Source: Anaerolineaceae bacterium
Lineage (GTDB): Bacteria; Chloroflexota; Anaerolineae; Anaerolineales; Anaerolineaceae
Assembly: GCA_002702705.1 (NCBI GenBank)
Contig: PABH01000035.1
Location: forward strand, 1 to 64,000
Length of the DNA: 64,000 bases
Direction: 5' to 3'
A program made the position numbers and the translations under genes. Positions 44,522 to 54,560 of this stretch are shown piece after piece (position 1 is the first letter of the stretch; the number at the start of each line of letters is the position of its first letter). The notes under the pieces are model-generated. The model was given only the letters and a program-made list of their open reading frames with translations, searched no databases and was not told the origin of the DNA.

Positions 44522-45337
44522 ATGCAATCTGTTGATTATCCATTTTTAATTGAAAAAGCCAGACAAATCCGAAAGATGACGATTGAAAGTATTGGTTACC
44601 TGGGCGTGGGCCATATTGGCGGTGCCATGTCCGTTGTGGAAGTATTAACTGTTTTGAATTACAAACATATCCATCGTGATGCAGATGACCCGAATAACCC
44701 GGATCGTGAGCGCTTGGTATTATCGAAGGGGCATGCCGGCCCGACATTGTATAGCATTTTGGCTGATCAGGAATTTTTCCCGATGGATTGGTTACACACC
44801 TTAAACAAAGGCGGCACCCATCTGCCCAGCCACTGCGACCGCAATCTGACCCCGGGTATTGACATGACAACCGGCTCGTTAGGACAGGGACTTTCCGCCG
44901 CAGTTGGCATCGCATTGGGCAACCGCCTGGATGGTATCGACCGGCCTGTTTATTGTTTGATTGGTGATGGCGAAACCAATGAAGGCCAAAATTGGGAAGC
45001 CGCCATGAGTGCTGCTCAATTTAAACTAAATAAACTGATCGCGTTCACCGACTTTAACAAAATCCAGTTAGATGGGTTTATGGTGGATGTGATGGGGATT
45101 GAAGACCTGGGTGCAAAATGGGAAAGTTTTGGCTGGTTTGTACAGCGCATTGATGGACATGATGTAAAACAAATTGATGAAGCCATTCTCCGTGCCCAAC
45201 AAGAGCAAACCCGCCCCAGTATGATCATTTTGGATACCATCAAAGGTAAGGGTGTTGATTTTGCCGAAAATCGTGCGGATAACCACAACATGAAAATTGA
45301 TTATCAAACGGCGTTAGAAGTGATCGGCCGGATATAG
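44522..45337 (+). CDS. Transketolase, N-terminal (TPP) subunit
   Basis: A 271-residue split transketolase. The TPP/metal motif GDG at 148-150 (GDGETNEGQNWEA) through DFNK is complete, and HAGPTLY and TTGSLGQGL (about 116-124) are intact. It works with the next gene's product as one enzyme transferring a two-carbon unit. GAGGAAA precedes the ATG, and the partner gene starts 16 nt after its stop. Split transketolases occur in central metabolism, but here it lies in a sugar-specific cluster. Confidence 0.93.
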   Translation: MQSVDYPFLIEKARQIRKMTIESIGYLGVGHIGGAMSVVEVLTVLNYKHIHRDADDPNNPDRERLVLSKGHAGPTLYSILADQEFFPMDWLHTLNKGGTHLPSHCDRNLTPGIDMTTGSLGQGLSAAVGIALGNRLDGIDRPVYCLIGDGETNEGQNWEAAMSAAQFKLNKLIAFTDFNKIQLDGFMVDVMGIEDLGAKWESFGWFVQRIDGHDVKQIDEAILRAQQEQTRPSMIILDTIKGKGVDFAENRADNHNMKIDYQTALEVIGRI

Positions 45338-45353
45338 GATGGATGAGGATAAG

Positions 45354-46316
45354 ATGTCAAATTATGAAAATGTAGAAATGCGTGCCGTCTATACTCAAAC
45401 GCTGATTGAATTGGCGGAACAGAATGACCGGATTGTATTGTTGGAAGCAGATTTAATGCGTGCTACCGGAACACAGCCATTTATGGATAAGTTTCCACAG
45501 CGTACCTTTAATGTGGGTGTGGCAGAAGCCAACATGGTAGGTGTTGCAGCCGGTTTATCATCCACGGGCAAAATTCCTTTCGCGAATACATTCGCCAGTT
45601 TTGCTGCCCGGCGTACCTATGACCAGTTTTTTATTTCTGCCAATTACGCCCGCCTGAATGTAAAGCTGGTAGGGTCCGATCCCGGGATTACTGCCTTATA
45701 TAACGGCGGAACCCATATGCCTTTTGAAGATTTGGGCCTGATGCGAAATATCCCCGGATTAACCATCTTCGAACCCAGTGATGCGGTTTCATTAAAAAAA
45801 CTGGTAAAGCAGGCCTCGGAATTTTATGGTTGTACCTACATGCGGCTTAACCGCCGGGTATCGCCCGTGATCTACGCGGAAGATGCAGACCTTCAGTTAG
45901 GAAAGGGTTACGTCTTACGAGACGGAGATGATGTGGCCATCTTTGCAATTGGGGCAGTGATGGTGAATGAAGCCCTGGCGGCGGCAGATGTTTTGGGAAT
46001 GCAGGGCATTTCCGCAGCGGTCATTGATATGCATACGTTAAAACCATTGGATAAAGAGCTGGTGTTATCGTATGCACAAAAAACCAAAGCGATTGTGACC
46101 TGCGAAAATCATCAGGTCATCAATGGCCTGGGTTCAGCCATCGCTGAATATTTAAGTGAAGTTCAACCAACCTTAATGCGGCGTGTGGGCGTGATGGATG
46201 AATTTGGTGAAGTGGGTGACCTGGATTATTTAATGAAACGATTTGGGATGACAGCCGAAAATATTACGCAGCAAACCCTGGCTTTATTAAAACAAAAAGA
46301 AAAAGAACTCGTTTAA
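45354..46316 (+). CDS. Transketolase, C-terminal (Pyr/C) subunit
   Basis: A 320-residue partner of the upstream subunit. It has ERTFNVGVAEANMVGVAAGL-type pyrimidine-binding residues (Glu in VAEANM), SDPGITALYNGGTHMPFEDLGLMRNIPGL, and a C-terminal domain (195-320) with DMHTLKPLD. The ATG at 45339 is possible, but GAGGA just before 45354 favours that start. Same operon. Confidence 0.92.
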   Translation: MSNYENVEMRAVYTQTLIELAEQNDRIVLLEADLMRATGTQPFMDKFPQRTFNVGVAEANMVGVAAGLSSTGKIPFANTFASFAARRTYDQFFISANYARLNVKLVGSDPGITALYNGGTHMPFEDLGLMRNIPGLTIFEPSDAVSLKKLVKQASEFYGCTYMRLNRRVSPVIYAEDADLQLGKGYVLRDGDDVAIFAIGAVMVNEALAAADVLGMQGISAAVIDMHTLKPLDKELVLSYAQKTKAIVTCENHQVINGLGSAIAEYLSEVQPTLMRRVGVMDEFGEVGDLDYLMKRFGMTAENITQQTLALLKQKEKELV

Positions 46317-46329
46317 GAAGGAGAATCCT

Positions 46330-46827
46330 GTGACTGACAAAATTAAACTGGCAATTGCTTCCGACCTTTCCGGCTTTCCGTTAAAACAAGCTATTGTGGA
46401 ACACCTTTCGAACCGAGAGGATATTGAACTGATCGACTTTGGCATTGAATCAGCAGATGCACCAAAACCCTATTTTGAGCAGGCTCCCAAAGTGGCGAAA
46501 GCCGTACAAAAAGGTGAAGCGGATAAGGGTATTTTGATCTGCGGCACCGGTCAGGGTATGGCAATTGTGGCCAACAAACATAAAGGGGTGTATGCCTGCG
46601 TGGTAGATGATATCTTTTCCGGTGAACGTGCCAAGATCATCAATAACGCCAATGTTATTACGATGGGCGGGTGGATCACAGCCCCATTTTTAGGGACCCA
46701 AATTGTGGACGCCTGGTTGAGTATGGCTTTCACTCAAAAAATGGAATTTAAACGGGAATTCCTAACCAATGCTTTCCAACAGGTACAGAAGCTGGAAGAA
46801 GAAACGTTTGGACCGTCTGCTGACTAA
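46330..46827 (+). CDS. RpiB/LacAB-family isomerase, atypical phosphate site
   Basis: A 165-residue RpiB-fold isomerase with catalytic Cys71 in CGTGQGMAIVANK and TMGG at the C-terminal side. Two family features are missing. The early DHAG is SDLSG, with Leu in place of His. The C-terminal GRHxxR motif that binds the sugar phosphate is absent; the region reads MEFKREFLTN. So a non-phosphorylated substrate is likely. In sulfo-TK pathways an RpiB-like enzyme (SqwI) isomerises 4-deoxy-4-sulfoerythrose to its ketose. The start is GTG with AAGGAG upstream. Confidence 0.82.
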   Translation: MTDKIKLAIASDLSGFPLKQAIVEHLSNREDIELIDFGIESADAPKPYFEQAPKVAKAVQKGEADKGILICGTGQGMAIVANKHKGVYACVVDDIFSGERAKIINNANVITMGGWITAPFLGTQIVDAWLSMAFTQKMEFKREFLTNAFQQVQKLEEETFGPSAD

Positions 46828-46967: not shown

Positions 46968-49130
46968 ATGAGTGAATATTTTAATCTTGAAAACTTAAAC
47001 GTTCAGCGTGGGTTTAACCGTTTGGCGTCCATCAAACCGGACCAGCCCATTCCGGGGGGTATGCGTTTTTTAAGTCAGGCGGGGAAATTGGATATTGTTT
47101 TTTACCAACCCGGAATCATTCGAATGCGGTTAAATCATAAACCTGTTAATGATTATGGATTACTGGTTGGTGAACAAGTGGAGGTGCCGGTAGAAATTAA
47201 AACCGGAACACAAAGTGTCAGTTTGATTTCTGAGGATGTGGAATTTGAGGTTTTTCCATCTCCGATTGCTTTCCGCTTAAAAAAAGGCGGAAAGGTAATT
47301 TTAGAGACCACCACAGACCGTTCGATGGAAAATACGGAACGGTTTTTTCCATTTGCCAAAACCGATCACGGGGATTGGCAAATGGCCTGGGCGTTAAAGA
47401 GTGATGAAGCCGTGTATGGGCTGGGAGAAAAATTCGGCCGCTTAAACCACCGTGGAGAATTAATCACATCTTGGGATTATGATGCCTTATCTGTCAACTC
47501 AGAGCGTTCTTATAAAAACGTACCCTTTGCCTGGTCTCCGAAAGGATGGGGAATGTTTGTGCATACCCCCGGCCGGGTAAAACATGCGGTTGGTTTTTCG
47601 GTCTGGTCACATCGTAATTATGTCCTCCAAATTGAAGATCAGAACCTGGATGTATTTTTATTTGCAGTGGATTCTCCGGCTGAAGTGATTAAAAAATATA
47701 CTGTACTGACTGGCTGCAGCCCGGAGTTACCTGATTGGAGTTATGGGGTATGGATGGCTCGCGGTTATTATCATACCGCCGAGGAATTGATGGAGGCCGT
47801 GCAGGGTATGCGGGATCGTAATATCCCGCTGGATGTTATTCTGCTGGATGGGCAGGCCTGGCATAAAAGAGAGACCCGCTTTGATTTTACCTGGGATCCG
47901 GATCGTTATCCTGATCCGCCTGCCTTTGTGCAACATCTAAAAGACTTGAACGTTCGCCTATGTTTGTGGGAATATACCTATATTTCCACATTTAACCCCC
48001 TATTCCATGAGTTAGCAGATAAAAATTATTTATTAAAAACTACGGATGGTGAGCCCTATATTCACCGTTGGATGCCGGAACCCTACGATATGGCCATGCC
48101 GCAGTTAATGCCAAGCGGAATTATCGACCTCACCAATCCGGATGCGTATGCCTGGTTCCGTGACCAGCACAAACCACTATTTGAGATGGGTGTGGCTGTG
48201 ATGAAGACCGATTTTGGGGAAGCCGTGCCGGAACATGTTGTTGCTTTTAATGGGGATTCGGGCAAACGATTACATAATGTTTACCCCATCTTATATAACC
48301 GTTGTGTTTATGAGGCGGCTGAACTATATGGTGAGGGCAAACCGTTGGTGTGGGGGCGTTCCGGTTGGATTGGCAGCCAGCGTTACCCGATTCAATGGGG
48401 CGGTGATCCGCAAACCGATTGGGAGGGTTTGGCAGCCAGTATTCGCGGCGGACAGGCCTGGGGATTGAGCGGTAACCCGTTTTATGCGCATGATATTGGT
48501 GGTTTTTATGGTGACCAACCCGGTGCGGAATTGTTTGTGCGCTGGACACAGGCCGGTGTTTTTACTTCTCACACTCGTTTTCATGGCCGCGGCCCGCGGG
48601 AACCCTGGCATTGGGGAGAAGCGATGCAGCTGATTATTTGTAAATGGATCAATTTCCGTTACCGCCTGCTGCCTTATTTAAAAATTTGTGAAAAACAAGC
48701 CGTTCAAGAATCCATGCCAGTGATGCGAGCCATGGTGTTGGCCTTCCCGGAAGATCGGGCTGCCTGGGCGTTTGAACAGCAGTATATGTTTGGTCCGTCC
48801 TTACTGGTTGCGCCGATTACTGAGCCTGGTGGTGAAAAATGTGTTTATTTACCGCATGGGGATTGGTATGATATCTGGCATGGTCAAAAATTTGAAGGCG
48901 GCCAGGTGATTCAATTGGAAAACTTCCCTCTGGATGAAATTCCCGTGTTTGGGCGTGCTGGAACCAGCCTGCCCCTGGGGCCCGAAATTCAGCACACCAA
49001 TCAGCTTGAAGGAAAACTCCAGGTTAATGAAATCTGGCAGTTTGGTGAATCACAGATGGATCTTGTTAAGGATTGGCTGGATGCTGATGTGGTGGAGGAA
49101 AAGTCTGTCGTTGTCAAAAAATTTGATTGA
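46968..49130 (+). CDS. GH31 glycosidase (alpha-xylosidase- or sulfoquinovosidase-type)
   Basis: A 720-residue GH31 enzyme. An N-terminal beta-sandwich (1-240) precedes a (beta/alpha)8 barrel with nucleophile Asp415 in MKTDFGE and acid/base Asp480 in WGGDPQTDW. The 65-residue spacing is close to that in alpha-xylosidase YicI (66). KTDFGE and HDIGGF look xylosidase-like. Known sulfoquinovosidases have a Tyr after IGG; here Phe512-Phe513 stands with Tyr514. No signal peptide, so it works on an imported glycoside. There is a 140-nt gap before it. Specificity unresolved. Confidence 0.85.
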   Translation: MSEYFNLENLNVQRGFNRLASIKPDQPIPGGMRFLSQAGKLDIVFYQPGIIRMRLNHKPVNDYGLLVGEQVEVPVEIKTGTQSVSLISEDVEFEVFPSPIAFRLKKGGKVILETTTDRSMENTERFFPFAKTDHGDWQMAWALKSDEAVYGLGEKFGRLNHRGELITSWDYDALSVNSERSYKNVPFAWSPKGWGMFVHTPGRVKHAVGFSVWSHRNYVLQIEDQNLDVFLFAVDSPAEVIKKYTVLTGCSPELPDWSYGVWMARGYYHTAEELMEAVQGMRDRNIPLDVILLDGQAWHKRETRFDFTWDPDRYPDPPAFVQHLKDLNVRLCLWEYTYISTFNPLFHELADKNYLLKTTDGEPYIHRWMPEPYDMAMPQLMPSGIIDLTNPDAYAWFRDQHKPLFEMGVAVMKTDFGEAVPEHVVAFNGDSGKRLHNVYPILYNRCVYEAAELYGEGKPLVWGRSGWIGSQRYPIQWGGDPQTDWEGLAASIRGGQAWGLSGNPFYAHDIGGFYGDQPGAELFVRWTQAGVFTSHTRFHGRGPREPWHWGEAMQLIICKWINFRYRLLPYLKICEKQAVQESMPVMRAMVLAFPEDRAAWAFEQQYMFGPSLLVAPITEPGGEKCVYLPHGDWYDIWHGQKFEGGQVIQLENFPLDEIPVFGRAGTSLPLGPEIQHTNQLEGKLQVNEIWQFGESQMDLVKDWLDADVVEEKSVVVKKFD

Positions 49131-49220: not shown

Positions 49221-51056
49221 ATGAATATGACTGGTCGTTTTTTTCGGATTAACTTAACCACCCGGGAAATTACAAAAGAAACCATTTCAGAGGAAATGAT
49301 CCGGCGTTATCTGTTGGGCAGCGGTTATGCCGCTTATCTCTATCATCAGGAGATGGATCCCATGATTGGCGCCTTAGACCCGAACAATGCTCTGTACGTC
49401 TTTAACGGTTTGCTTTCCGGTTATACAGCACCGACAGGCTGCCGTTCTTCCTGGTGTGGGCGTTCACCGTTATCCGGCATCTGGAATGAAGCCAATATGG
49501 GGGGGCATTTTGGCGGAGAATTAAGAAAAACGGGCTGGGATGGATTTGTGGCTACGGGACGTGCCGAAAAGCCGGTTTATCTATACATCCAAGACGATCA
49601 AATCGAAGTGCGCTCTGCGGAACACCTGTGGGGCAAGGATACCTTTGAAACGTACGACCAGTTAATTAACGAAACGGATCCGAAAGCCCGAGCGGCGGTG
49701 ATTGGACCTGCCGGAGAAAACCAGGTTTTGTTCGCCGCGGTCGTGCAGGGCGGTTCCACACACAGCCGGGCTGCCGGGCGGGGCGGCATGGGCGCTGTGA
49801 TGGGCAGCAAAAATTTAAAGGGGGTTGTGGTACGCGGCACAAGCAAACCCGATGTGTTTGATACCTCTGGTTTCCGTAGTTATGTTAAAGAAACCAATAA
49901 AACTATTCAGGCTGCCAGTAAAGGGCTTTCTGCCTATGGTACGGCGGGCGGGGTTGAAGGAGCGGAAGCAGTAGGTGATTTACCAATCCGCAACTGGGCA
50001 GCCGGCTCATGGGAAGACGGCGCCACGGCCATCGCCGGGCAGACCATGCAGGAAAAATACCCTGTCAAACAGGCTTTTTGTTTTGCCTGTCCGATTGGCT
50101 GCGGCAAACAGGTCACGACTGAAAACGAAGACGGTACTTTATTTAAACGGGAAGCACCGGAATATGAAACCCTGGCCGGTTTTGGCGGTTTATTGGAAAT
50201 TGATGATATTGATACCGTGATTGCCGCCAATGATTACTGCAACCGGATGGGTTTGGATACCATGAGCACATCCACTGTGGCGGCTTTTGCCTATGAAGCC
50301 TATCAAAATGGTTTGATTTCAACCGAGGCAGTAGGCGGGTATGATCTGACCTGGGGTAATAAGGAAGCGCTGCCGCCGCTGCTGGACCGGATCACCTATC
50401 GTTCTGGGGCTGGGGCTTACCTGGCGGATGGGGTGCGCCTGGCGGCTGAATTTTTGGGGCATGATTCGGAAAAATATGCCATCCATGTGAAGGGGCTCGA
50501 GCTGGCCAATCATGATCCGAGAGCCATCAACTCGATGGCGGTTGGTTATGCCACCGCGAACCGCGGCGGCTGCCATCTGGAAACCTTATCGTACTGGACC
50601 ATTTACGGCTTAAAACCACCCTGGTCAACTGTCGAAATTAAAAACCGGTTTGAACCGGAAAACGCAGCCCAGCAGGCAGTCGATTTTCAGAATTATTTTT
50701 CGGCTTACAACCCCTTGGGGTTGTGTAAGTTTATTTCCAAATCACGTTTAAGTGCCGAAGATATAGCAGAATATGTGGCCCTGTTAACCGGCTGGGAGTT
50801 TTCGGGTGAGGAATATACCCTGATTGGAGAACGTCTGTTTAACTTAAAACGGCTGATTAACCAAAAATTAGGTGTAAACCGGAAGGATGATACCTTACCG
50901 CCGCGCATCTTAACCGAGGCTCGCCCGGATGGTATGTCGGCGGGCAAACTGCCGGATTTACCCTTATTACTAAATACCTATTATGAAATCCGTGGGTGGG
51001 ATTCGGAAGGGGTTCCCCTGCAGGAAACACTTTCTCGATTATCGTTAGAATTATAA
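49221..51056 (+). CDS. Tungsten-type aldehyde:ferredoxin oxidoreductase (AOR family)
   Basis: A 611-residue AOR. The N-terminal part holds the tungstopterin motifs (GCRSSWCGRSPLSG, RAAGRGGMGAVMGSKNLK). The [4Fe-4S] ligands Cys287, Cys290, Cys294 and Cys502 are present (CFACPIGC and NPLGLC). EAPEYETL (311-318), GLDTMSTS, HVKGLELANHDPR and RGGCHLETL are canonical. It oxidises an aldehyde to an acid and reduces ferredoxin. No tungsten/molybdenum cofactor genes are in the window. In this cluster the natural substrate could be sulfoacetaldehyde; other aldehydes are possible. It is in the same orientation as GH31 and 19 bases before a TSUP exporter. Confidence 0.9.
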   Translation: MNMTGRFFRINLTTREITKETISEEMIRRYLLGSGYAAYLYHQEMDPMIGALDPNNALYVFNGLLSGYTAPTGCRSSWCGRSPLSGIWNEANMGGHFGGELRKTGWDGFVATGRAEKPVYLYIQDDQIEVRSAEHLWGKDTFETYDQLINETDPKARAAVIGPAGENQVLFAAVVQGGSTHSRAAGRGGMGAVMGSKNLKGVVVRGTSKPDVFDTSGFRSYVKETNKTIQAASKGLSAYGTAGGVEGAEAVGDLPIRNWAAGSWEDGATAIAGQTMQEKYPVKQAFCFACPIGCGKQVTTENEDGTLFKREAPEYETLAGFGGLLEIDDIDTVIAANDYCNRMGLDTMSTSTVAAFAYEAYQNGLISTEAVGGYDLTWGNKEALPPLLDRITYRSGAGAYLADGVRLAAEFLGHDSEKYAIHVKGLELANHDPRAINSMAVGYATANRGGCHLETLSYWTIYGLKPPWSTVEIKNRFEPENAAQQAVDFQNYFSAYNPLGLCKFISKSRLSAEDIAEYVALLTGWEFSGEEYTLIGERLFNLKRLINQKLGVNRKDDTLPPRILTEARPDGMSAGKLPDLPLLLNTYYEIRGWDSEGVPLQETLSRLSLEL

Positions 51057-51074
51057 ATAAAGGAACCATCCAAT

Positions 51075-51815
51075 ATGGGTTTTGAATTTAATATCATTTA
51101 TGTTTACATTGCCCTGATCGTGTTTTTTGCGACCATGACCCGGGCCGCGATCGGTTTTGGCGGTGCCTTGATTGCGATGCCCCTGCTGACCTTGCTGCTG
51201 CCGATTAAAGAGACCTCCCCGCTGGTGGCCTTGATGACCAATACCAATGCCATTTTTATTTTGTTGGGCAGCTGGCGTGAAGTGCGGGTCAAAAGTGCCT
51301 GGCGGTTAATTCTAGCTTCGTTGGTGGGTATTCCGATTGGTGTGGTAATCCTCAGCCAGGCTTACCAGGGTTTGGTAACGGGTTTGTTGGGGGTAATCAT
51401 TATTTTGTTTGCAGGGTATAGTTTGTTTAATCCGGAAATTAAAGTGAAGGTGAATGAAAACACGGCTTTTTTGTTTGGCTTTTTTGCCGGAATTTTGGGC
51501 GGCGCTTATAATGCCAACGGACCCCTGGTGGTGATTTATGCTACCATGCGGAAATGGCCTGCCGAAAAATTCCGCGCCACCTTGCAGGGATATTTTTTCC
51601 CCATCGGGTTGGTGATTATTTTCGGTTATGTCTTATCCGGCTTATATACCCGTACTGTGTTTTTGTATTACCTGTATGCCGCTTTACCGGCAACCTTTTT
51701 GGGTTATTTAACGGGGAATCTGATCCATCACCGCATTCCGCAGAATTTATTTAAGCAGATGGTTTATTTGCTGCTGATTGCGGTGGGTGTGTCGTTGATC
51801 ATCAAGGTTTTTTAA
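51075..51815 (+). CDS. TauE/SafE (TSUP) family exporter of the sugar cluster
   Basis: A 246-residue protein of about eight TM helices with the TSUP pattern RAAIGFGGALIAMPLLTLLLP in the first half and GILGGAYNANGPLVVIYATM in the second. TSUP exporters release sulfite, sulfoacetate, sulfolactate and other anions. It follows the AOR gene by 19 bases with AAAGGA before the ATG, and it is the last gene of the cluster. That position suits export of an acid product such as sulfoacetate. Confidence 0.85.
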   Translation: MGFEFNIIYVYIALIVFFATMTRAAIGFGGALIAMPLLTLLLPIKETSPLVALMTNTNAIFILLGSWREVRVKSAWRLILASLVGIPIGVVILSQAYQGLVTGLLGVIIILFAGYSLFNPEIKVKVNENTAFLFGFFAGILGGAYNANGPLVVIYATMRKWPAEKFRATLQGYFFPIGLVIIFGYVLSGLYTRTVFLYYLYAALPATFLGYLTGNLIHHRIPQNLFKQMVYLLLIAVGVSLIIKVF

Positions 51816-52476: not shown

Positions 52477-53004
52477 TCAATTAGAATTTTCCACAAAGTC
52501 CCGGTAATTTTCTATTTCTGCAAAATTGTCCAAAACCAAATCTTTCTTCAAATTATCCCCGGTTCTTTCACCAATATAATCCAAATAACTTGAGTAAGCC
52601 CAATCTTTTGGGGAACGAACCAAACCAGCTTTTACTGGATTTAAATGGATATACCGTGATACATAAACTAATTCTTCCGAGGTTGTTATTTGTTTGAATT
52701 TATACGATCCTTGGAATATAGGACCTACCCGATGCTCTTGATTGTTGATGGCTTTTGTATAGGCGGTGCTGAAGGGCAAAATCACTTTTATACCAAAATC
52801 TTGACAAAGGACATTTACCAACAGATGGTAATGGTTTGGCATCAAACAATATGCCAGTATTTCTGCATATGGGGATCGAAAATATTGGAACGTTTTATAA
52901 AGGAAATAGTCCCAATTCTTTTCTTTAAAAAAAATCGGTTCCCGGTTAACACCTCGATTATAAATATGATAGATTTGGTTTTGTTGAATTTGTGGTTTTT
53001 GCAT
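52477..53004 (-). CDS. REP-associated tyrosine transposase (RAYT 2, Y1/HUH family)
   Basis: A 175-residue Y1_Tnp protein of a different subgroup from the 25384 gene. HIYNRGVNREPIFF is at the start, the HUH motif is MPNHYHLLV, GPIFQGSYKFKQI is near 94-106, and the helix YVSRYIHLNPVKAGLVRSPKDW carries the candidate catalytic Tyr. The two transposases align only in these motifs. Family B repeats end two bases from its stop codon and resume 40 bases before its start, so it sits inside its own array. Intact. Confidence 0.9.
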   Translation of the reverse strand: MQKPQIQQNQIYHIYNRGVNREPIFFKEKNWDYFLYKTFQYFRSPYAEILAYCLMPNHYHLLVNVLCQDFGIKVILPFSTAYTKAINNQEHRVGPIFQGSYKFKQITTSEELVYVSRYIHLNPVKAGLVRSPKDWAYSSYLDYIGERTGDNLKKDLVLDNFAEIENYRDFVENSN

Positions 53005-53385: not shown

Positions 53386-53495
53386 CCCCCCATACCTGTG
53401 CCAAAGGATAGGTGTGATTTATCCAGAATACGGATGTACTTCTCATGATTTGGTTTACACTTAAAGTGTACGTTGTTGTATTTGTGGAGGTAAGG

Positions 53496-54560
53496 ATGAA
53501 AATTTTAGTGATTGGTGCGGGTGTATTGGGGTCATTATATGCGGCTCGTTTGCAAAATAGCGGGCAGGATGTGACGGTTCTGGCACGTGGAAAACGGCTT
53601 ACCCAACTCCGTGAAAATGGGATTGTTTTAACGAATGAATCCGGCCACGAAAAATCAATTACTCCGATGCGGGTAATTGAAGCAATTGATCCGGAAGAAT
53701 TTTTTGATTTTGCCTTGGTGTTGGTTCGCAAAAACCAGATGAAAGAAGTTCTGCCCTTGCTTCGTGATAATGTTGGTGTTCAATCTTTCGTATTTATGAG
53801 TAATAATGCGGTCGGCCCGGTTGAATATATTCAAACCGTTGGAAACGAACGGGTCCTATTGGGCTTCCCCGGCGCAGGCGGCAGCCGCGATGAAAACGGT
53901 GAAGTAACTTACTCGATTGTTCCCGGAGAAATCCAATCGACCACGATCGGTGAATTAAACGGTCAGCGGACGGAACGGGTGGAGCAATTAAGTCGATTAT
54001 TAAACCAGGCTGGTTTCCCGACAGTGATCAGCGAGAATATGGATGCCTGGTTAAAGACTCATGTGGCATTGGTCAGTCCGGTAGCAAATGCCATTTATTT
54101 GGCGGCGGGAGATCCCTATCGTCTGGCAAATACCCGGGATGGGTTGGTGCTGATGGTACGCGCCATTCGGGAAGGACTGCATGTATTGGATCACTTAGGG
54201 GTGCCAATAACACCCAAAAAATACAAATTAATCCGGTGGGTACCGGAAGGAATTTTGGTGCCGATCTTGCAAAAGGGATTTGCAACCCCCCAGGCCGAGT
54301 TGGTTTTGGCACGGCATGCCCGATCTGCGCGGGACGAAATGCAGCAATTGGGTTTAGAGTTTCAACAATTAACCCTTGATGCCGGAGTGCCGACGCCAAA
54401 TATTGATAACCTGATGTTATTTGCCACCTCCACTGAACGCGTTTTACCCTCCGGCAGCCAAAAACTACGGTATTGTTACCAGGATTGGGTGCCAGTGGTA
54501 ATGGGTGTGACGTTGGCTGGTCTTCTGATGGGAATCATTTTCCGCAGAAAAAGAAAGTAA
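53496..54560 (+). CDS. Ketopantoate reductase-like (ApbA/PanE family) with C-terminal TM
   Basis: A 354-residue NADPH-binding protein. The Rossmann motif is VIGAGVLGSLYAARL at the N-terminus, KSITPMRV then FDFALVLVRKNQ follow, and the catalytic Lys-type region is MDAWLKTHVALV. Residues 330-350 add a hydrophobic helix followed by RRKRK, so it may be membrane-tethered, unusual for PanE. It may reduce ketopantoate or a related 2-oxo acid. Start at 53496: GGAGGTAAGG precedes it. Confidence 0.8.
   Translation: MKILVIGAGVLGSLYAARLQNSGQDVTVLARGKRLTQLRENGIVLTNESGHEKSITPMRVIEAIDPEEFFDFALVLVRKNQMKEVLPLLRDNVGVQSFVFMSNNAVGPVEYIQTVGNERVLLGFPGAGGSRDENGEVTYSIVPGEIQSTTIGELNGQRTERVEQLSRLLNQAGFPTVISENMDAWLKTHVALVSPVANAIYLAAGDPYRLANTRDGLVLMVRAIREGLHVLDHLGVPITPKKYKLIRWVPEGILVPILQKGFATPQAELVLARHARSARDEMQQLGLEFQQLTLDAGVPTPNIDNLMLFATSTERVLPSGSQKLRYCYQDWVPVVMGVTLAGLLMGIIFRRKRK

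Follow-up and report, generated by a model that had tools for sequence, protein, structure and literature searches.

A sulfo-transketolase operon of Anaerolineaceae with an aldehyde:ferredoxin oxidoreductase as its proposed last enzyme

In the sulfo-transketolase (sulfo-TK) route of sulfoquinovose breakdown, as set out in the available sections of the literature, the product of the transketolase steps is sulfoacetaldehyde (PMC12890257, PMC9594981, PMC11659671). Two endings are described there, SqwF leading to isethionate and SqwD with SqwKL leading to sulfoacetate, and sulfoerythrose is isomerised by SqwI (PMC12890257, PMC9594981). In the accessible part of one review the pathway is assigned to Clostridia, Spirochaetes and Thermotogae, and in its table to Firmicutes, Spirochaetes and Thermotogae. 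Here we describe an operon in a 64,000-nucleotide stretch of an Anaerolineaceae (Chloroflexota) genome (contig PABH01000035.1, positions 1 to 64,000; the whole stretch is referred to as the window). The operon has sulfo-TK-type genes and ends in genes for an aldehyde:ferredoxin oxidoreductase (AOR) and a TSUP-family exporter.

From the observed gene content, its conserved order and the match between AOR clade and gene context, we infer substrate, direction, electron acceptor and exporter cargo as follows: the operon probably encodes a sulfo-TK pathway in which the AOR takes the last step, sulfoacetaldehyde to sulfoacetate, and the TSUP protein exports sulfoacetate. Sulfoquinovose would be converted to sulfofructose by the isomerase. 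The split transketolase with the RpiB-type isomerase would then transfer a C2 unit twice, with glyceraldehyde-3-phosphate as acceptor, so that sulfoacetaldehyde is left; the chemistry of both steps is known, and homology is our basis for assigning them. In the next step the AOR would oxidise sulfoacetaldehyde to sulfoacetate, a reaction that would need no CoA, NAD or ATP and in which ferredoxin would take up two electrons; export of the sulfoacetate would fall to the TSUP protein. AORs use ferredoxin as acceptor, and aldehyde oxidation is able to drive its reduction.

Compared with the isethionate variant of Clostridium sp. MSTE9 (SqvD-SqwGH-SqwI-SqwF-SqwE), the isomerase, split transketolase, RpiB-type isomerase and exporter are alike, but the window operon is without SqwF (PF00465), has an AOR instead, and belongs to a Chloroflexota host, which is not in the review's list. 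Exported sulfoacetate, the product proposed here, is also that of the Acholeplasma-type variant (SqwD and SqwKL), and a SauS-like gene is found in one relative, G005; in the window operon, however, one ferredoxin-linked step would replace the acylating dehydrogenase and ADP-forming ligase, and low-potential electrons would be gained instead of ATP. The extended sulfo-transaldolase pathway with SuyAB (Chloroflexi, Thermotogae) resembles the window operon in an orthologous isomerase, an ABC importer and some GH31- or GH4-family hydrolases, and loci of the f64 family carry a sister AOR; the window operon differs in its transketolase in place of a transaldolase, its C2 rather than C3 sulfonate and its lack of SuyAB. 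In Desulfovibrio sp. DF1, whose pathway for 2,3-dihydroxypropane-1-sulfonate (DHPS) is a different one, an AOR gene also stands beside sulfonate-oxidising genes, and we liken that AOR to the window clade by its context and its proposed role.

The operon is therefore likely a variant of the sulfo-TK pathway with a last step that is new relative to the literature searched. The available text of two reviews (PMC12890257, PMC9594981) gave no mention of ferredoxin in a word search, and no proposal of an AOR for sulfoacetaldehyde was found in the available literature on sulfoacetaldehyde or sulfoquinovose together with AOR. An earlier note on this DNA, made from the letters alone, had called the step undescribed. 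For sulfoacetaldehyde this stands within the literature searched; the reservation is that an AOR has been proposed in a sulfonate pathway before and tested inactive. According to the accessible part of that study, the DF1 enzyme (protein 130621) is DHPS-inducible, is encoded beside the pathway genes and was put forward as an additional oxidase for sulfolactaldehyde (PMC6278857).

The operon and its conservation in the genus

The genes form a plus-strand run in the order ROK-isomerase-TKN-TKC-RpiB-GH31-AOR-TSUP (TKN and TKC being the two transketolase halves; Table 1), separated in that order by 26, 16, 1, 13, 140, 90 and 18 nt (range 1 to 140 nt). The AOR and TSUP open reading frames (ORFs), the last two of the operon, lie where the earlier note had placed them, although their spacing, given there as 19 nt, measures 18 nt. 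Its statement that neither a sulfoacetaldehyde reductase nor a CoA-acylating dehydrogenase with ligase is visible also holds: among the ten main ORFs scanned between 41933 and 55179, no alcohol dehydrogenase of PF00465 (the SqwF family) and no CoA-acylating dehydrogenase or CoA ligase of the SqwD/SqwKL type was found. Because the window genome has eight AFOR_C matches in 5.9 Mb, the presence of an AOR by itself means little; what counts is that its position in the operon is conserved.

Eight genomes of the genus, that of the window included, were compared. Five have an isomerase orthologue (at least 54% identity), and the same five have a clade AOR, the four others being 58-61% identical to that of the window. 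The full order from ROK to TSUP recurs in G005, G004 and G007; G006 has it on two contigs, L040 carrying ROK to GH31 and L293 carrying GH31-AOR-TSUP. Thus every genus member found with a sulfo-TK locus keeps the AOR in it and, because the identical order was found again in four further genomes, chance is a poor explanation. Neither an isomerase orthologue nor a clade AOR was found in G001, G002 and G003; G001 and G003 have only isomerase relatives of 26-27% identity, and G001 has a 40% AOR. When 400 genomes of the order were searched, AORs of at least 59% identity were found in those five genus members only. An ABC sugar importer, related to importers of other Anaerolineae sulfosugar loci, follows the operon on the opposite strand in G004, G006 and G007; the window genome has a homologue of it, with a ROK gene, on another contig.

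Table 1. Genes of the window operon and their positions in the window.
Feature	Coordinates	Strand	Basis
ROK-family regulator, 403 aa	41933..43144	+	PF00480 and winged helix-turn-helix; first gene in conserved order
Sulfoquinovose isomerase homologue (SqvD/SftI type), 444 aa	43171..44505	+	NF048012 match, below cut-off
Transketolase N-terminal half (SqwG-like)	44522..45337	+	PF00456
Transketolase C-terminal half (SqwH-like)	45339..46316	+	PF02779 and PF02780
RpiB-type isomerase (SqwI-like)	46330..46827	+	PF02502; 79-82% identity to four genus members
GH31 glycosidase	46968..49130	+	PF01055; sugar specificity unproven
AOR, 611 aa, proposed sulfoacetaldehyde oxidase	49221..51056	+	AFOR_N/AFOR_C; 1AOR E=5e-127; clade of sulfosugar-locus AORs
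TauE/TSUP-family exporter, 246 aa, proposed sulfoacetate exporter	51075..51815	+	PF01925; after AOR in four genus members

The AOR clade, its residues and its gene contexts

The window AOR spans residues 1-199 of the 199 of AFOR_N and 3-385 of the 385 of AFOR_C, and is thus full length. Its best solved relative is the Pyrococcus furiosus enzyme (1AOR), a full-length homologue with the same Fe-S cysteines and active-site Glu and His, the two being compared by sequence alone. When the window AOR is compared with seven close relatives, the Fe-S cysteines C287, C290, C294 and C502 and the presumed active-site residues E316 and H452 do not vary, and the cysteine motif aligns with that of 1AOR. The window genome also encodes the tungstate-binding protein WtpA, above cut-off. 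An AlphaFold2 model of the AOR (8-row alignment) was too poor for use, with a mean pLDDT of 43 and a pTM of 0.34.

That the enzyme is instead a glyceraldehyde-3-phosphate:ferredoxin oxidoreductase serving the lower pathway is very improbable. Glyceraldehyde-3-phosphate is indeed the acceptor in the published pathway, as far as the available text describes it (PMC12890257, PMC9594981), but the corresponding model, NF040818, gives only 36 bits against a cut-off of 1300 and matches only the N-terminus. Moreover, oxidation of the acceptor would oppose the transketolase steps, and close relatives of the AOR lie in SuyAB-type loci.

To place the AOR among its relatives, 396 genomes of the class were searched, and 68 had an AOR match at E<=1e-140. 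Outside the window genome, the four best matches come from family f64, and each has split or fused genes of the galactarate-dehydratase/SuyAB family as neighbours. A wider collection, in which 84,980 species are represented by a single genome apiece, was scanned with two peptide patterns taken from the AOR alignment; contexts were judged from the flanking sequence available, for the best 80 of 259 relatives. In that set, all 11 AOR loci of at least 55% identity are sulfo-TK loci or lie beside SuyAB-type genes, compared with 0 of 69 loci below 55%. Note that L127 is counted among the 11 by GH31-AOR-TSUP and ABC genes, which is all its contig shows, and that L128, L129, L163 and L127 are not independent of the genus set, since, judging by their equal lengths, they are apparently the same contigs as in G004, G007, G005 and G006. 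The scan returned AORs from many phyla, and in the flanking sequence available for them no sulfosugar locus was recognised; the AOR of L203 has only a 25% transketolase-like match beside it.

A tree of 111 AORs, made after removal of near-copies and of pieces under 450 aa, contains one clade composed of five transketolase-locus AORs and seven SuyAB-locus AORs, and nothing else. A more careful tree of 52 rows (the 12 clade rows and 40 others picked by hand) supports the clade with UFBoot/SH-aLRT values of 100/100, the transketolase subclade with 95/94 and the C3 subclade with 100/99. The occurrence of the same clade in C3 (SuyAB-type) loci had been missed by the earlier note. Sulfosugar core genes adjoin all 11 relatives of the window AOR within the clade, against 0 of 97 other AORs. 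For this count, L248 and L261, fetched through the isomerase, stand outside the 97; TSUP is the sole core gene on the contig of L293; and the flanks totalled 13.3 and 11.9 kb at the median, those of the window genome's own paralogues reaching no more than about 1.5 kb to either side. Of the six class-sample genomes with a clade AOR, five also have the isomerase; the sixth, G406, is 69% complete and carries its AOR on a 4.4 kb contig.

Some alignment columns follow the clade. At column 97, 45 of 47 sister AORs have W, all 5 transketolase-locus rows have F (as does the P. furiosus enzyme in its alignment), and the six C3 rows with a letter there have I. Other columns distinguish the clade by basic or polar residues. 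At column 576, K or R in 12 of 12 clade AORs stands against V or N in 44 of 47 others. The window AOR itself departs from the clade at column 257 (H in 11 of 12 clade AORs, R in the window) and at column 124 (H in 10 of 11, Q in the window).

These contexts bear on the possibility that the AOR is a general aldehyde scavenger, co-transcribed with sulfosugar genes and guarding the cell against several reactive aldehydes. A broad aldehyde range is common in AORs, the active-site motifs of the window enzyme are found throughout the wider Anaerolineae AOR group, no neighbour besides the AOR is common to more than 5 of 40 clustered loci, and a homologue of acylating sulfoacetaldehyde dehydrogenase adjoins the operon in G005. 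We nonetheless consider scavenging rather unlikely, given that the clade, in the window and all 11 relatives, was seen only in sulfosugar or SuyAB-type loci, and that its AORs occur in two pathway types and in a slot otherwise held by a dehydrogenase.

Weighing the sugar and the last step

Several observations weigh against sulfoacetaldehyde oxidation by the AOR in a sulfoquinovose pathway. At the sugar end, the only NCBIfam match of the isomerase is NF048012 (sulfoquinovose isomerase), at 345 bits against a cut-off of 700. The GH31 enzyme, for which the nearest NCBIfam model is alpha-xylosidase (484 of 606 bits), was rejected as a YihQ-type sulfoquinovosidase: aligned to MG1655 yihQ, it has an incomplete set of the YihQ residues Q262, Q288, R301, W304 and Y508, the R301 column being uncertain owing to an alignment gap. 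The split transketolase pair is present and is predicted to act on sulfofructose, and the RpiB-type isomerase falls in the family of SqwI, with a predicted substrate. Because the isomerase is under cut-off and the GH31 enzyme is without the complete YihQ set, the identity of the sugar is read from the pathway, and it is probably the plant sulfosugar sulfoquinovose.

At the other end, the gene convergent to TSUP in G005 (L039/L163) encodes a SauS-like protein of 463 aa, scoring 576 of 600 bits with the model for SauS, the acylating sulfoacetaldehyde dehydrogenase. Since this gene offers a CoA route, the AOR is weaker as the sole last step in G005, where it may be redundant or have another job. 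The SauS-like gene fits sulfoacetaldehyde handling in that neighbourhood. It is the first gene beyond TSUP of an opposite-strand cluster (L039 10173-15998; L163 10173-18586) that continues with an RpiB-family gene, a second transketolase pair (40-41% identical to that of the window), an IolG-like dehydrogenase, an MFS/GPH-family sugar transporter and a thiamine pyrophosphate enzyme. This cluster could form a route of its own, of sulfonate or inositol type, with sulfoacetyl-CoA as its end product. A search with the SauS model, covering the window and the sequence around the other AOR loci, gave no SauS-like gene. The window genome has an unlinked acylating dehydrogenase (L298), 33% identical to the G005 protein, which is of the acetaldehyde type (560 of 620 bits, versus 291 of 600 for SauS).

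Two further loci, L244 (G339) and L245 (G326), are sulfo-TK loci with a TSUP gene in which neither an AOR nor an aldehyde dehydrogenase is visible. The contig of L244 stops 150 nt after GH31, and in L245 no oxidoreductase was found by Pfam among eight further ORFs. In G339 (88% complete) no AOR match reached E<=1e-140; G326 does have an AOR (49%), which lies on a different contig and falls outside the clade. Because these loci show no AOR, the last step can be encoded otherwise. The pairing of AOR with sqwGH-type genes, which the earlier note had proposed to look for in Anaerolineae genomes, was found in five of the seven sulfo-TK loci seen and fails in these two; all five cases belong to one genus and may perhaps represent a single event. 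In addition, no sulfonate-binding residue or signature was identified among the clade-specific columns, and none is claimed, because the active-site distances of clade residues need a usable structure model. Finally, according to the accessible text on the DF1 enzyme, the recombinant AOR, made in E. coli, was inactive with sulfolactaldehyde, lactaldehyde and acetaldehyde (PMC6278857); in our reading, it may have been produced without tungsten. The claim that an AOR closes this sulfo-TK pathway, as first put forward in the earlier note, thus rests on its retention in every sulfo-TK locus of the genus and on a clade found only in sulfosugar or SuyAB-type loci, and is narrowed by L244, L245 and the SauS-like gene of G005.

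It is also conceivable, if unlikely, that the TSUP protein exports sulfite or isethionate and that an unlinked enzyme reduces or desulfonates sulfoacetaldehyde, an arrangement compatible with a scavenging AOR. PF01925 is named for sulfite export, TSUP genes are also present in the two loci that show no AOR, and an ApbA/PanE-family reductase ORF (53445-54560) lies 1.6 kb downstream of the operon, beyond a transposase-family ORF. This ORF, however, is not kept: no match to it was found in the 19 loci compared. Nor does the operon hold a SqwF-type reductase, and the window genome has no Xsc above cut-off (TIGR03457, 298 of 676 bits). No SafD above cut-off was found in that genome either (NF047626, best 225 of 700 bits). 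The transposase-family ORF is of the Y1 (IS200-like) type and is convergent to TSUP (52477-53004, minus strand).

A second sugar operon of the window genome (L045 876-10757; G000:C10, about 81-91 kb) contains genes for GH31, enolase-superfamily and class II aldolase-like proteins, a PfkB kinase, an isomerase 26% identical to that of the window, an iron-type alcohol dehydrogenase and an AOR. It resembles a route for a deoxy- or sulfo-sugar that would yield a lactaldehyde.

C3 loci and the reach of the clade

Chloroflexi transaldolase clusters with SuyAB are already known, as the available part of one review reports (PMC9594981). In our loci the name SuyAB-type is based on protein family, on the split form of the genes and on their context; galactarate dehydratase is the best NCBIfam match, far under cut-off. 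L134 and L137 have the order ROK-isomerase-three ABC genes-aldehyde dehydrogenase-AOR-transaldolase-SuyAB-Gfo/Idh. L133, and G286 over two contigs (L265, L292), have no dehydrogenase, the AOR following directly after the ABC genes, and L263 and L268 have an aldehyde dehydrogenase in that slot and no AOR. Because of these orders, we place the AOR in the sulfolactaldehyde-to-sulfolactate slot, beside or instead of the dehydrogenase; sulfolactaldehyde would be the substrate of the C3-subclade AORs and sulfolactate their product. A transaldolase is present in five of the seven C3 loci, the other two (L088, L091) being short contigs with SuyAB-type genes only. A Gfo/Idh/MocA-type dehydrogenase gene is kept directly after SuyAB in C3-type AOR loci (L090 12321-13538, L133 14267-15481, L292 3759-4973).

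The sister subclade raises the question of whether the window AOR, too, acts on another sulfo-intermediate (4-deoxy-4-sulfoerythrose or sulfolactaldehyde) rather than on sulfoacetaldehyde, sulfolactaldehyde being the natural substrate beside SuyAB-type genes. We regard this as improbable. A search of the window genome for genes to make or use the C3 compounds yielded neither an orthologue of the locus transaldolase (best 33 bits) nor a SuyB match, although the latter empty result, obtained without a positive control, shows little. Sulfoerythrose, for its part, goes to SqwI in the known pathway, as far as the available text describes it (PMC12890257, PMC9594981).

Recruitment of an AOR is a minority choice. 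Isomerase orthologues (E<=1e-80, 45-56% identity) were found in 50 of 395 other class genomes searched, and 49 isomerase loci were surveyed besides those of the window and G431. Transaldolase or SuyAB-type genes are present in 25 of the 49, 11 of which also have an aldehyde dehydrogenase; a clade AOR lies on the stretch itself in one (L265). Among all 51 isomerase-bearing genomes, five have a clade AOR.

Two sulfosugar transaldolase loci without an aldehyde dehydrogenase (L248 4658-6361, L261 3936-5675) carry an AOR of another subfamily, 27-28% identical to the window AOR, which suggests a second, independent recruitment. The AOR of the L045 operon is 44% identical to that of L261. Other genes of these loci were recorded as follows. 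A LarA (lactate-racemase-family) gene lies near sulfosugar transaldolase loci (L261 1181-2455, L263 2060-3385) and is a candidate sulfolactate racemase. A PF03601 protein adjoining SuyAB-type genes (L248 885-2204) is a candidate exporter of released sulfite. GH4-family proteins, recognised in L251 (7889-9340) and L245 (7462-8871) by PF02056/PF11975 and in L247, L248 and L254 by similar N-termini, may be GH188-like sulfoquinovosidases of Anaerolineae sulfosugar loci.

Taking both locus types together, we judge the chances somewhat better than even that the clade AORs are dedicated to sulfonated aldehydes, as sulfoaldehyde:ferredoxin oxidoreductases used at the C2 and C3 branch points and feeding reduced ferredoxin into anaerobic Chloroflexota energy metabolism, and that a second, distant AOR subfamily joined C3 loci independently (L248, L261). 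The clade delimits a group of enzymes for which two substrates are predicted, which makes the claim directly testable. Anaerobic sulfosugar breakdown sets the form in which sulfur leaves the cell (isethionate, sulfoacetate, DHPS or sulfite), and hence which sulfidogens are fed.

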